In this document: positions 5,927-32,928 of the stretch, one piece after another | Layout of the letters: each line of letters starts with the position of its first letter | Numbering within the stretch: the first letter of the stretch is position 1 | Translations under genes and position numbers: made by a program | Source: Clostridia bacterium | GTDB lineage: Bacteria; Bacillota; Clostridia; Christensenellales; Borkfalkiaceae | NCBI GenBank assembly: GCA_017467345.1 | Contig: JAFTSI010000035.1 | Location: 1 to 35,224 of the forward strand | Length of the DNA stretch: 35,224 bases | Direction: 5' to 3' | The notes under the pieces: model-generated | The model's database searches: none | What the model was told of the DNA's origin: nothing | The model's input: the letters and a program-made list of their open reading frames with translations, nothing else

Positions 5927-5928
5927 AA

Positions 5929-5956
5929 AAGCACCAACTGAAAGTTGGTGCTTTTA
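5929..5956. terminator. bidirectional intrinsic terminator between hisK and the ubiquitin-like gene
   Basis: An 11-bp perfect stem AAGCACCAACT / AGTTGGTGCTT with a GAA loop. T-rich tracts lie on both sides (TTTTAACTTTT on plus, TTTTTTATTTTT on minus). It sits 3 nt after the hisK stop and 14 nt past the stop of the convergent gene, so it can end both transcripts. Confidence 0.88.
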
Positions 5957-5969
5957 ACTTTTAAACTTA

Positions 5970-6569
5970 TTAATTTTTACGGCTTTTAACTGCCAAGCAA
6001 ATTATTGCAAAACAGGTAAGCGAAGTAAACACTATATAGTTTCCATTTAAACTTGTGTTGCAGTTAATGAATGAAGAATTATTTTCACTTTCAGGAGTGG
6101 TGCTTTCGGTGTTTTCGTTTTGATTTTCATTTTCTGTAACAGGTGGGGTAAGGTAGATAGAAATATCTTTTTCACACTCTGTGCAAGCGCCGTTAACATA
6201 AATGCCTAAGCAGTTTTCTGTGCCGTGGCACGAAGTTTTTTCGTTGCGAATAATAACATGTAAAGTAGATTCTTTTTGAATGTTATAATCGCTTAAAGTT
6301 TTTCCATCTTTAACAACCTTTCCTGCAAACATAATAACAATTTTATCGGTTGGAATGGAAGTTTTTTCTTGAACTCTTGCCTTAATTTCATCAATAGAAG
6401 TGTTAGGCTCAACTTCAAGTGTTTGAGTGCTTGTATCATCTCCGTTTAACACCTTAAAAAACACTTGCATTGCACTTGCTTTTGTCAATGAAAACATTGA
6501 AAAACACAAAATAGAAATAGCAAACAAAATTATCAAAACAAAACTTAACTTTCTTTTAGCAGTATTCAT
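5970..6569 (-). CDS. secreted, membrane-anchored ubiquitin-like domain protein
   Basis: A 199-residue exported protein. Residues 1-33 form a signal peptide (KRK, hydrophobic core, then TKASA). Residues 34-108 align with eukaryotic ubiquitin almost end to end: MQVFFK matches ubiquitin MQIFVK, TLEVEP and FAGK are identical, and [14 protein letters not shown] is a 14-residue identity. My hand count is about 41 identities in 72 aligned positions, with a 3-residue insertion in the first beta hairpin. Equivalents of K48 (K84) and K63 (K99) are kept. The L8/I44/V70 patch becomes L41/M80/I106. After R108 (ubiquitin R72) the LRGG tail is replaced by NEK, so it cannot be conjugated in the usual way. 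A four-Cys segment (C114, C120, C129, C132), an Asn/Glu/Thr-rich linker and a C-terminal membrane segment (about 178-194) follow. ATG 6569 is chosen because AGAGGG lies 7 nt upstream; a TTG at 6575 is too close to it. Confidence 0.9.
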
Positions 6570-6599
6570 AACCAAGCCCTCTTAAAATTATTATAGTAA

Positions 6600-6627
6600 A
6601 TTATACCACTTACAAAATAATTTTCAA
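6600..6627 (-). promoter_or_regulatory. sigma-A promoter of the ubiquitin-like gene
   Basis: Read on the minus strand: TTGAAA, 16-nt spacer, TATAAT, with an extended -10 (TGG before TATAAT). It lies about 30 nt upstream of ATG 6569, so the gene is monocistronic with a short leader. Confidence 0.75.
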
Positions 6628-7052: not shown

Positions 7053-7145
7053 TGGCGGAAAAGATGGGATTCGAACCCATGTGCCGAAAACTCGACAACC
7101 GCATTTCGAGTGCGGCTCGTTATGACCACTTCGATACTTTTCCGC
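7053..7145 (-). tRNA. tRNA-Ser (anticodon CGA)
   Basis: Read on the minus strand: acceptor GCGGAAA pairs with TTTCCGC. The anticodon stem CCGCA/TGCGG carries the loop CTCGAAA, so the anticodon is CGA (reads UCG). There is a long class II variable arm TGTCGA/TCGGCA, a T arm ATGGG-TTCGAAT-CCCAT, and an encoded 3' CCA. The 93-nt length suits tRNA-Ser. It is divergent from lgt and ends at a strong terminator. Confidence 0.96.
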
Positions 7146-17112: not shown

Positions 17113-17262
17113 TTATCCTATATACTCTAAATCGCTATAACAGTTAGGGCAAATGCGCTTGGTTTTTTTAGCACAATCTGTGCAAACAATATGCCCACAG
17201 TTAGGGCATTCAAGCATATTTCCCATAGTAATTTCATTGTTACAATTTCTACATTTACTCAT
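17113..17262 (-). CDS. small zinc-ribbon protein
   Basis: 49 residues dominated by four CxxC pairs: CRNC, CPNCG, CTDC and CPNC, with short basic stretches between. It looks like two zinc-binding ribbons or one treble-clef plus ribbon. ATG 17262 is chosen because the zinc-ribbon sequence begins there and AAAGG lies upstream at a somewhat long spacing of 10 nt. The longer frame to 17544 runs through the gyrB promoter and into gyrB on the other strand and is unlikely to be coding. It is divergent from gyrB, with its 3' end on the hairpin array. Function unknown. Confidence 0.65.
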   Translation of the reverse strand: MSKCRNCNNEITMGNMLECPNCGHIVCTDCAKKTKRICPNCYSDLEYIG

Positions 17263-29676: not shown

Positions 29677-32600
29677 TTATTCTTTAATATCGTTGTCGCT
29701 ACCAAAGTCTTGAACATCACCATAAACATATTCATCAAGTGTGCTTTCGCTTTCTTGTTCAGCGTTTTCGGTGTTTTCTTCGGTTTCGGTTGCAGTTTCT
29801 TCTTCAACCGTTTCAACTTCGGTTTCTTCTTCGGTTTCAGTTTCAACTTGTTCTTGTGCTTTATCTTTCTTATCTTTCAATGCTTTATATCTACTTGAAA
29901 CATTATAGTGTGATTTAGCATCATTAGCATTTGCTTTCTTTCTATTGATAACACCCTTAATGATAAGAGCAACAAGAGCAAACACAAGTGCTACGCCAAG
30001 TAGGATAGAAGAGAATTGCATCCAGAAAGTAGCAGGGTCGGTTTCAGCAGCGCAACCTTTTTCTTCGGTGTCTTCTTCGGTTTCGCTTGCATATGGGTCA
30101 ACTTCGTCGTATTCTAACGAATTAAATATAGCGTAAGCAACGGTAGGAGTTTTAACCCAAACATATTTAGCAGGGTAAGCAACTGCCGCGTTCTTACGGT
30201 CGCTATCGTTGTTATACTCAACTTCGGTTTCGCTAAGTTCGCGCTTGTGTAAGAGTGATTCGTTTACAACACCCTTATCGTAAATAGTAGCATCAAGTAA
30301 TACGCCTTCGGTAAATGCAAGCAAGTAGTTGGTGCTTGTTGATTCGGTAAACGCGCCAGAAGTAATAACTTCATCAAAGAATACAAAGCCTTGCGAATTG
30401 TCGCTACCATCTCTTGCACCGTTCCAAAGTTCTAAACGGAAGTTTTTGCTTTGGTTGCCAGCAGCAATATAGAAGTTAACGGTAACCCAACCATCTTCAT
30501 CAGCACGCATCATACCACTCTTAACTTTGAACATCATAGTTCCAGTTTTGGTTTGAATATCGTCGCCAGTTAAATAACTTGTTCCATCAGTATTAACAGG
30601 AACTTCAATAGACATAACCTTTTTGGTATCGCTTGAAGTATCAACTAAATAGATATACGCGCTTGCAACACCTACAACCCTAACTTTAACAGAAATTTGC
30701 ATTGAACTGTTGGCAGAAAGGGGAAGTGATTCGCCTATAAATCCATAAGCATTAGCAGTTGCGTTATAAATCATTAAAGGTTGAGCATCTTTGCTACCTG
30801 TGTGGTTTAATGCCGAACTAATAAGCGACGCGTTGTTGTAAGAGCCAACATACTTGGTATTAATAACACCAGCCATACCGTCAGTAGTTCCGTTTCCACA
30901 TCTATCGTTAACAACGAAATTAGTGCTTTCAGAATTGATATAGCCGTGGTTAGAAGAAACGCCAGTAAAACCATCAATATTAGCAGGTCCGTGAAGAATT
31001 GAACCGATAGCGCTTGGCGAAACATTCATTGCATAGGCAACTGAATCGTCTTTTTCGGTCCAGTCTAAAAGGTAAGCAGAGAACAATGCTTCTTTAGCAT
31101 CAGAAACGCTATAAGCAAGCGAATAGTAACTGTTAAAGTCGGTTCTATTTTCAGGTAATTCTTCTTTAATATCGTAATCGGTGTAGTAAGAATTGCCCGC
31201 AGAAGTAGTTGCGCTTACATAATTTTCTCTTTGGAAGTTGTATGATTTGCCAGTTGCAATTTCAGGAAGAGTAACTAAAACATTACCAGTTACAAAATCA
31301 GAGTTTGCCGTGGTAGATAAAATATCGGTAGGACCAACAACAATTTCAAAGAAGAATGCGTGTTCTACATCTGCATACTTTCCATCAACATCTTTTTCGG
31401 GGAAGTTGTTAGAAAGGGTAAATGAAACCTTAACCCAGTCTTCATCATAGGTGGGGTTAATGGTAATTCTTGGTGCTTTAGCATAAGCATAATCACCAGT
31501 AACTAAATCGTGGTTTACATCATAAGCCAAAACGGTAATTGATTTTTTATTGAATTCGCCAAGGTCAGCCTTTAAGTAGAAAACTACATTAGCATAAGAT
31601 TCTGGCTTAACAACCATAACAGGCGCATCATAACTACCAAATCTAATGGTATAACTTGCACCGGTAACTTCGGCGTTCATTAAGTAATTAGAGTAATCAC
31701 AAGTTTCGCCTGTGTAATCTTTGGTAAGTGTTCCAGAACCCTTGGTGGTAGTTCCATCACTACCTAAGGTTAAACTACCGTTAACGATAGCAGGGTTTAA
31801 TTGAGAATAGAAAGTGCTTGCGTAGGTATCAATTGATTTGTTTAAGTCCATTGAGTAAACGAAAGCCGTTTGAGTTCCTGCTACAACTTCTAAAGCATCT
31901 TCAGGAGCAACTTCATATTCAAAAACATTTTCAACTGCGCCGTTAGTGATAGCATTGTCATAATCGGTTTTTTCTATTTCTTCAAAGGTGATATCGTCAA
32001 AGTAAACAGTTCCTTCGCAGTAATCTTTAGCCTTGTTAGCCGCACCGTTGCCGTAGCCTAAACCAACTTCAACAATTACAGAGCAGTCAACAAAATCGTC
32101 AGCCTTAACGAATATTTCATATTTAGCCCAACCGTTAGCATCAACAGCAACACCACTTGTTTCGGTGTTAATACCACTAATTCTATAATCTGCTTGTTTG
32201 GTGGTTGAAACTGTGTTTGAAAGCCTAATGTTTGCACCTAAATCACTTGCCGTGCCAAAATGAGCAATGTTTCTTGTTTGAACAAAAACAGTAATTTTGC
32301 CAAACGAACCTTTTTCTAAAGCGATAGAAGTAGAAGAAACAAGTTTTTGCGCCGTGCCTTGTCCAATACCACCAAGGTTAGTAACGCTGGGGTAGTTGTT
32401 AAGCATATAAACCTTACTGCCATCAGCGCCAACAGGTGCTTTGGGGTTAGCAAAGTTAGTTTCGTTAAGGTAGGTTTCAATGATGTGGTTTTTAACTTGT
32501 TCATCAGTCCAACCTGAGTTAGCCGACTTAACATCACTTACTTTAAAATCCCACTTCTTTTCAGCATAGGCAATAAAATCGCTATCGTCGTAAAGATTAG

Positions 32601-32928
32601 AAAGCAATTTTGTCCACGCTTCGGTTTTGGTGTTAACGATACCAGAAGTAATAAGCGAAGTTTGAGCGGCATTGTCAACTGATAACGACCAGTTGCTTGC
32701 AGAGTTATAAGGATATTGGTCCAAAGTAACACCGTTAGTGCCGAACTCAAACGAACCGTTTACAATCTTGGCTTCGTCAGTCCACTCATAAGAATAATCT
32801 TTTTCGGTAAATTCGCTTTCGTCGTCGCCACAAGCAGTCAAAAAGAATGCCGAAGTGCACGCAAAAAGCACCGCTAAAAGAATAAGCAATATTCTGTTTT
32901 TGATTTTGCTAAACATATTTGTTGCCAT
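29677..32928 (-). CDS. large cell-surface lipoprotein with beta-sandwich modules and a C-terminal membrane anchor
   Basis: 1083 residues. An N-terminal signal sequence ends in lipobox LTAC with C33, followed by GDDES. The extracellular part has about three jelly-roll or carbohydrate-binding-like modules: KIVNGSFEFG...GTVYFDDITFE (about 50-320), VNGSLTLG...APRITINPTYDEDWVKVSFTLSN (about 380-580), and MQISVKVRVVGVASAYIYLVD...RLELWNGARDGSDNSQGFVFFDEV (about 720-880). Near the end, GC (C959) precedes a membrane segment (about 968-994), then NRKK and an 89-residue acidic cytoplasmic tail rich in Glu/Thr. Lipid anchor plus C-terminal membrane helix is an unusual double anchor. Ligand unknown; polysaccharide binding is a guess from module type. 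AAAGGTG is the ribosome-binding site. Confidence 0.82.
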   Translation of the reverse strand: MATNMFSKIKNRILLILLAVLFACTSAFFLTACGDDESEFTEKDYSYEWTDEAKIVNGSFEFGTNGVTLDQYPYNSASNWSLSVDNAAQTSLITSGIVNTKTEAWTKLLSNLYDDSDFIAYAEKKWDFKVSDVKSANSGWTDEQVKNHIIETYLNETNFANPKAPVGADGSKVYMLNNYPSVTNLGGIGQGTAQKLVSSTSIALEKGSFGKITVFVQTRNIAHFGTASDLGANIRLSNTVSTTKQADYRISGINTETSGVAVDANGWAKYEIFVKADDFVDCSVIVEVGLGYGNGAANKAKDYCEGTVYFDDITFEEIEKTDYDNAITNGAVENVFEYEVAPEDALEVVAGTQTAFVYSMDLNKSIDTYASTFYSQLNPAIVNGSLTLGSDGTTTKGSGTLTKDYTGETCDYSNYLMNAEVTGASYTIRFGSYDAPVMVVKPESYANVVFYLKADLGEFNKKSITVLAYDVNHDLVTGDYAYAKAPRITINPTYDEDWVKVSFTLSNNFPEKDVDGKYADVEHAFFFEIVVGPTDILSTTANSDFVTGNVLVTLPEIATGKSYNFQRENYVSATTSAGNSYYTDYDIKEELPENRTDFNSYYSLAYSVSDAKEALFSAYLLDWTEKDDSVAYAMNVSPSAIGSILHGPANIDGFTGVSSNHGYINSESTNFVVNDRCGNGTTDGMAGVINTKYVGSYNNASLISSALNHTGSKDAQPLMIYNATANAYGFIGESLPLSANSSMQISVKVRVVGVASAYIYLVDTSSDTKKVMSIEVPVNTDGTSYLTGDDIQTKTGTMMFKVKSGMMRADEDGWVTVNFYIAAGNQSKNFRLELWNGARDGSDNSQGFVFFDEVITSGAFTESTSTNYLLAFTEGVLLDATIYDKGVVNESLLHKRELSETEVEYNNDSDRKNAAVAYPAKYVWVKTPTVAYAIFNSLEYDEVDPYASETEEDTEEKGCAAETDPATFWMQFSSILLGVALVFALVALIIKGVINRKKANANDAKSHYNVSSRYKALKDKKDKAQEQVETETEEETEVETVEEETATETEENTENAEQESESTLDEYVYGDVQDFGSDNDIKE

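Follow-up and report, generated by a model that had tools for sequence, protein, structure and literature searches.

A bacterial ubiquitin made for export has been described in Bacteroides fragilis. This protein, BfUbb, shares 63% identity with human ubiquitin, its processed form being ~9 kDa; according to its 2011 description, it inhibited ubiquitination and bound E1 in vitro, the binding to human E1 being reported as covalent even though BfUbb has no Gly-Gly (PMC3352274). A secreted ubiquitin extension protein of Globodera rostochiensis, built of a signal peptide, ubiquitin, and a C-terminal extension, is exported to act on another organism (PMC5705921). The Ruminococcus albus 7 plasmid pRUMAL01 carries WP_013483628.1, annotated as "ubiquitin family protein," so single members are already recognized by name. 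In open-access PubMed Central, the literature covered here (subscription papers and most preprints lie outside it), we found no account of a wider exported-ubiquitin family beyond BfUbb, and the available text of PMC4378268, PMC11354881, and PMC3482391 does not describe exported bacterial ubiquitins. Here, we analyzed a 35,224-nucleotide stretch of Clostridia bacterium DNA (contig JAFTSI010000035.1 of assembly GCA_017467345.1), hereafter the window. Its minus strand carries at 6569 to 5970 a gene for a 199–amino acid protein, the window protein, which almost certainly is exported and tethered and contains a true ubiquitin domain. It lies at the edge of a wide family of bacterial exported ubiquitins that has hardly been described. 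While the BfUbb type was already known, the window protein is clearly a new variant of that kind.

Like BfUbb, the window protein comes from a gut bacterium, is a ubiquitin of the eukaryotic type, lacks the terminal Gly-Gly, and carries a signal peptide whose cut would restore ubiquitin residue 1; BfUbb itself is present in some strains only (PMC3352274 and PMC5705921). Unlike BfUbb, compared here by its published description, the window protein matches human ubiquitin at 42 of 76 aligned positions (55%), has a 3-residue insert in the first β turn of the domain, and continues for ~90 further residues. In contrast to the small, released BfUbb, it has 199 amino acids and a C-terminal hydrophobic helix. 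The G. rostochiensis effector, as described in PMC5705921, differs in being eukaryotic and in having a 12-residue extension that is cleaved off in the plant, whereas in the window protein the Gly-Gly needed for such cleavage is missing and the extension is long and includes a hydrophobic helix. WP_013483628.1 shares with it the origin in gut Clostridia, a signal peptide before Met1, ubiquitin, and a C-terminal extension, but it shows no C-terminal hydrophobic helix in the sequence as listed, is plasmid-borne, and falls outside the group of 22 sequences to which the window protein belongs (see below).

An earlier note, made from the letters of this DNA, had placed a feature at 5970 to 6569 without giving a strand. 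The feature is real, and the gene (P0001; found as an open reading frame and by Pfam) proves to be on the minus strand, with its ATG at 6569, its stop codon at 5970 to 5972, and an intact frame; the plus strand is closed by stops in the frame that the note had stated. Residues 34 to 108 (6246 to 6470, minus strand) matched Pfam PF00240 with an E value of 1.6e-19 and 69.9 bits versus a cut-off of 25.4, covering profile positions 2 to 71 of 72. In the alignments shown by phmmer against PDB chains, ubiquitin was matched over the same residues at ~68 to 74 bits per domain. Thus, these residues are ubiquitin along the length of the domain, as had been claimed, and the identity counted by hand (about 41/72) was close to the computed value. 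Six of the eight Pfam matches were ubiquitin-like by name, the other two (Get5_N and MATH_2) were both below cut-off, and ubiquitin led by 30 bits. Membership of a native β-grasp family (ThiS, MoaD, or YukD), which the earlier note had raised against its own reading, was rejected, as no family of this type was matched in the Pfam scan of the window protein. An AlphaFold2 model based on an alignment of 12 sequences shows the strand-strand-helix-strand order of ubiquitin, with 10-residue mean predicted local distance difference test (pLDDT) values of 78 to 79 over residues 31 to 50 and 91 to 93 over residues 51 to 100; pLDDT is below 50 for residues 111 to 182, and a helix is predicted at 182 to 198. 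The ubiquitin match is neither a chance match nor the product of a broken frame.

As the earlier note said, TLEVEP, FAGK, and the block [14 protein letters not shown] agree with ubiquitin at every position. Given 42/76 identity, the chance of 14 of 14 identical positions in this block is about 0.005; however, we did not use it as support because relatives found without the seed peptide of the genome scan vary there. Five of the seven lysines stay (K6, K27, K33, K48, and K63, among them the K48 and K63 equivalents already reported), while K29 is arginine and K11 is lost. Q2, F4, and T12 are kept, and so is R72, after which NEKT replaces LRGG at positions 73 to 76 and the chain continues. The residues L8, M44, H68, and I70 occupy what we take to be the I44 patch of ubiquitin, which is conservatively changed.

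The predicted signal peptide spans residues 1 to 33 (6471 to 6569, minus strand), with a basic start, a hydrophobic core, and a KASA end directly before the Met-Gln that begins ubiquitin at Met34. It passes the heuristic that we applied to the relatives (hydrophobicity of 3.4 over 11 residues), and the model places a helix at residues 3 to 27. As previously proposed, the predicted cleavage after ASA would expose ubiquitin Met1. Behind the domain, a segment with four cysteines (C114, C120, C129, and C132) takes the place of the LRGG tail at residues 109 to 135 (6165 to 6245, minus strand), and by eye a similar Cys segment follows ubiquitin in one relative (L017). It is followed by a polar linker without predicted structure (residues 136 to 181; 6027 to 6164, minus strand) and by a C-terminal hydrophobic helix ending in KSRKN (residues 182 to 199; 5973 to 6026, minus strand), a probable membrane anchor. 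These parts are present as reported, and the proposed membrane tether is probable from sequence and model. On reading, no LPXTG-like motif precedes the helix, and the sole sortase-type NCBIfam match of the protein scored 11.6 bits versus a cut-off of 47; the protein is not of the sortase-anchored type. The loss of LRGG stood, while the further statement that the protein cannot be activated by E1 went beyond it, since BfUbb is reported to bind E1 without a Gly-Gly (PMC3352274). A conjugatable ubiquitin ends in LRGG, free or freed by processing, and the window protein does not; it safely follows from the sequence that it would not be conjugated in the normal way.

Scanning genome_contigs with the 75-residue domain, seeded with the peptide DYNIQKES, yielded 317 relatives, and the following counts rest on the best 80 of these 317. 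We found that 71 of 80 passed an export test at Met1, a simple heuristic asking for a signal peptide with an A-x-A-like end directly before this residue, as compared to 23 of 649 internal methionines in neighboring genes. On reading, L050 and L052 also have a plain signal peptide, and that of L070 lies nine residues further up. The remaining six comprise a polyubiquitin (L084), two frames with at most seven residues before ubiquitin (L059 and L074), and three without a signal peptide directly ahead of it (L053, L061, and L064). Twelve of the 80 records bear a strain or species title rather than that of a bin, and every one of them belongs to the exported group: three Saccharibacillus, two Dyella, and one each of Cohnella, Rhodoferax, Aquiluna, Methylolobus, Pseudovibrio, Haliea, and Paracidovorax, spanning Paenibacillaceae, Proteobacteria, and Actinobacteria. 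Thus, bin contamination cannot explain the family, even though individual bin names among the relatives (cyanobacteria, an archaeon) are not to be trusted. Ubiquitin is commonly presented as a protein of eukaryotes, and exported forms are now found in many unrelated bacteria, cultured isolates included.

These forms mostly have a predicted cut at Met1, lack the conjugation tail, and sit on very different surface proteins. In a Pfam scan of the window protein and the 71 exported relatives (72 proteins, the long ones cut at 1000 residues), the parts behind ubiquitin included, among 25 of 43 families listed, the autotransporter barrel (15), S-layer homology (4), IPTL-CTERM (3), dockerin (2), and a type IX sorting tail (2); NCBIfam gave a similar picture. 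In frames with a stop, the mature lengths ranged from 56 to 1662 amino acids with a median of 362, the shortest being a frame that ends inside the domain (L080). Gly75-Gly76 was found in 4 of the 71 relatives long enough to tell and also in L120. As side observations, Dyella sp. OK004 (L055:4905-5228) encodes an exported ubiquitin that ends exactly in LRGG and is identical to human ubiquitin at 75 of 76 positions, and a frame from 4808 on an IMG/VR contig (L127) encodes another that ends exactly at LRGG; from their sequences, both are candidate secreted, conjugatable bacterial ubiquitins.

Hidden Markov model (HMM) searches with PF00240 found matches over cut-off in 3 of 396 genomes of the order (the window's own and diverged domains in giant frames of G213 and G267), in 5 of 391 of the class, and in 4 of 398 of the phylum sample, two of them partial, the last two counts again including the window's own genome. 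The class and phylum searches, run without the seed peptide, gave six further full-length hits in five genomes (G443 twice, G591, G535, G490, and G974), and by eye all six have a signal peptide ending before Met1. In G443, the two exported-ubiquitin genes (L119 and L125) belong to different subfamilies and stand in tandem. The matches in G889 and G851 are both partial, and that in G851 was discarded as a chance match to what reads as a purine-synthesis gene. Phages as carriers were considered and rejected, as no match was found in 50,697 phage records. Of the nine loci that IMG/VR provided, on putatively viral contigs, five look by eye like exported forms (L127 and L130 to L133, with L130 to L132 nearly alike).

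Next to these genes, two neighbor families recurred. A 336–amino acid protein (L034:426-1433, minus strand) and its relatives beside L022, L026, L027, L035, L038, and L082 lie 13 to 76 bases from the frames of seven proteobacterial-type exported ubiquitins, and the one member scanned had no Pfam match. Another family recurs beside five gut genes, and the one member scanned contains a TetR domain.

The earlier note had the domain acquired from a eukaryote, probably a host. As stated, this was not supported. In an unrooted tree of 86 domains and 72 columns, with 37 of its 80 inner branches unresolved and a bootstrap short of convergence, the window protein falls into a group of 22 rows (98/98) with 18 gut Clostridia, two Bacteroidales bins, and one further member of the class. 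Its nearest neighbor there is L008 (93/82), which is also its best match (50/76 identical positions, as compared to 42/76 for human ubiquitin), while human, yeast, and viral ubiquitins are on the other side. Ruminant gut is named in the titles of 15 of the 20 titled loci in this group, and the other five name no host. N20, D24, E32, and K54 are common to the window protein and all 11 aligned group members, where human ubiquitin has S, E, D, and R; S22 (human T) is shared with 10 of the 11, and at positions 20 and 24 the two Bacteroidales sequences have other residues. A constraint that joins the window protein to five eukaryotic-type ubiquitins lowers the likelihood by 18.3 log units, with an approximately unbiased (AU) test P value of 0.211, which leaves a separate eukaryotic origin compatible with the 72-column tree. 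Descent from bacterial exported ubiquitins is therefore favored but not proven. With its nearest relatives in gut Clostridia, the proximate source of the window gene was most likely another bacterium, and its ultimate source was presumably a eukaryote or a virus.

In a 49-contig, 1.09-Mb assembly (77.6% complete, 0.02% contamination), the window is contig 18, and this gene is the only ubiquitin match of the whole assembly. By reading of their open frames, the left neighbors are his genes and a PHP-type gene, and the right neighbors are tRNA-Ser(cga), Lgt, TrkA, TrkH, and others. A genome of the same genus, G015, keeps the order tRNA-Ser, Lgt, TrkA, TrkH, and five more genes, with a different gene, for a giant repeat protein, left of the tRNA in place of the ubiquitin gene. 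This comparison puts the ubiquitin gene just outside the common block, adjoining the tRNA. The repeat protein (L148:26-5791, 1921 amino acids) has an end, with a Cys-Ser-Gly segment, a hydrophobic stretch, and RKKK, that recalls the C terminus of the window protein, and the spot beside tRNA-Ser may be one that exchanges surface genes. The ubiquitin gene has a GC content of 0.325 and a codon score of 0.179, within the 0.117 to 0.269 of 28 neighboring genes, which argues that it is not a fresh arrival. Together with the G015 synteny and the family members in isolates, this local codon usage led us to reject host or assembly contamination. Against that rejection weighs that, of six genus loci viewed widely, the gene order is kept in G015 only; the other five have Lgt alone nearby, one of them with a 38% PHP match further off, and among 29 shorter genus loci TrkA was shown only at that of G015. 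We consider the contig bacterial, neither eukaryotic nor chimeric, contrary to the contamination that the earlier note had allowed for.

In bacterial ubiquitin-conjugation operons (Bil and relatives), the ubiquitin gene is accompanied by genes for E1, E2, or JAB proteins. In the window, no such genes adjoin it, its neighbors reading as histidine, PHP-type, Lgt, and Trk genes. Another contig of the same genome carries one ThiF-family gene (a 240–amino acid frame). Genome-wide searches for E2 and UCH gave no match, but both were silent in every control genome, so absence is not established.

How fast the domain changes bears on what it does. In 17 pairs chosen as near neighbors and thus not independent, rough NG86 estimates over 72 codons gave nonsynonymous rates (dN) of 0 to 0.052 for the ubiquitin part, with synonymous rates (dS) of up to 1.41, while dN of the partner part reached 0.55. 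Ubiquitin dN was below partner dN in 15 of 17 pairs; the exceptions were L043/L087, in which the partner is slower, and L012/L016, in which both parts are nearly identical. The slow change of the domain on unrelated carriers suggests a partner that recognizes ubiquitin as such. The invariance of DYNIQKES in 77 domains was dropped as proof of a functional face because the scan had been seeded with that peptide; HMM-found members read DYSIQMGST (L122) and DYSIQKDST (L136), and so K63 is not strictly kept.

We tentatively regard the window protein as a surface-tethered ubiquitin mimic, not normally conjugatable, that is bound outside the cell by ubiquitin-recognizing partners, a proposal that falls somewhat short of an even chance. 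Sec would export the protein, signal peptidase I would cut between ASA and Met to restore ubiquitin's own N terminus, the C-terminal helix would serve as membrane anchor, and the Cys segment with the linker would present the domain outward. In the least certain step, another organism, either a gut protist or the animal host, would bind it through ubiquitin-recognizing proteins, for which it would be a decoy or ligand that is not attached to substrates. The window protein is one of many exported bacterial ubiquitins that share an N-terminal module at the head of very different surface proteins, and other bacteria are the most likely source from which its genus received it. Eukaryotic ubiquitin readers would be the obvious class of partners, and protists are eukaryotes common to waters, soils, and rumens. 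Extracellular ubiquitin as the ligand of an animal receptor has been the subject of reviews, and that receptor is a possible further host target. If mimicry is true, ubiquitin would be in common use as a means of contact of bacteria with eukaryotes or with each other, and purified domains could fish out the target directly. The broader proposal, that a signal peptide–ubiquitin cassette spread across many phyla, was joined to many surface proteins, and engages the ubiquitin machinery of protists and animals, is on balance doubtful; on that view, the recipient might even conjugate the ubiquitin in a handful of cases, including Dyella sp. OK004 with its intact LRGG end.

Several observations speak against such mimicry. 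Among 44 genus genomes, the protein was matched only in the window's own, with no match in the other 43 or in any of the 18 near-complete ones. The end branch of the window protein (0.63) is the longest of the tree, the protein has V42, M44, and I70 where ubiquitin has R, I, and V, and positions 73 to 76 are all changed; there is no guarantee that standard ubiquitin readers would recognize an outlier with a changed patch and tail. Family members outside the gut by name, such as Rhodoferax lacus and Paracidovorax valerianellae, imply that a vertebrate host is not the general target. No partner gene was common to the loci among frames of at least 80 amino acids, and tether and topology are predictions.

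The main rival, an antibacterial role by analogy with BfUbb, would have the exported ubiquitin act on neighboring bacteria by uptake or contact. We judge it unlikely yet to be taken seriously, as the patchy presence in the genus and the spread across habitats fit weapons between bacteria, and the one tested precedent, BfUbb, described as acting against other strains of its species, points to bacterial targets (PMC5705921). However, BfUbb is small and was found in the culture supernatant (PMC3352274), whereas the window protein ends in a hydrophobic helix and large additional parts are present in most relatives, as their median mature length indicates. Moreover, no immunity-like neighbor recurred in a comparison that called genes of at least 80 amino acids. 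Still less likely is that surface proteins use ubiquitin only as an N-terminal cap or spacer that is compact and stable, with no partner specific to it. The occurrence of one domain at the front of such unrelated surface proteins (autotransporter, S-layer, dockerin, and other types) is how a generic module would behave, but ubiquitin changed more slowly than its partner part in nearly all pairs, and not just the core but also many residues of the outer face are conserved, unlike in a drifting spacer, a conservation that is partly a search artifact. A decaying or neutral pickup would suit the long end branch, the single copy, and the lack of matches elsewhere in the genus but is improbable for a gene with an intact frame, a signal peptide, promoter-like, ribosome-binding, and terminator-like signals, and a codon score and GC content that mark it as long resident and unbroken.

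These local signals all lie on the minus strand. A promoter-like site, TTGAAA-16-TATAAT with TG ahead of the second hexamer, is at 6600 to 6627 by consensus match only, in a region with 17 such sites observed versus 5.9 expected. A ribosome-binding site, AGAGGG, reads at 6577 to 6582 ahead of the ATG. Directly downstream of the gene, a terminator-like hairpin of 13 pairs with a T run (5927 to 5955, consensus match only) sits between it and the convergent histidine genes. From these signals, the ubiquitin gene looks like a single-gene unit. The tRNA-Ser (cga) upstream of it is at 7053 to 7143, minus strand, and also adjoins lgt in G015.

Two further minus-strand genes of the window were recorded. 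The one at 29677 to 32928 encodes a 1083–amino acid protein with a lipoprotein-like start (LTAC), a C-terminal hydrophobic stretch, and no Pfam family over cut-off. The other, at 17116 to 17262, encodes a 49–amino acid protein with eight cysteines in RING/FYVE-like spacing, under the cut-off of the 25 Pfam families listed; it was matched in 38 of the 44 genus genomes and is thus not tied to the ubiquitin gene.
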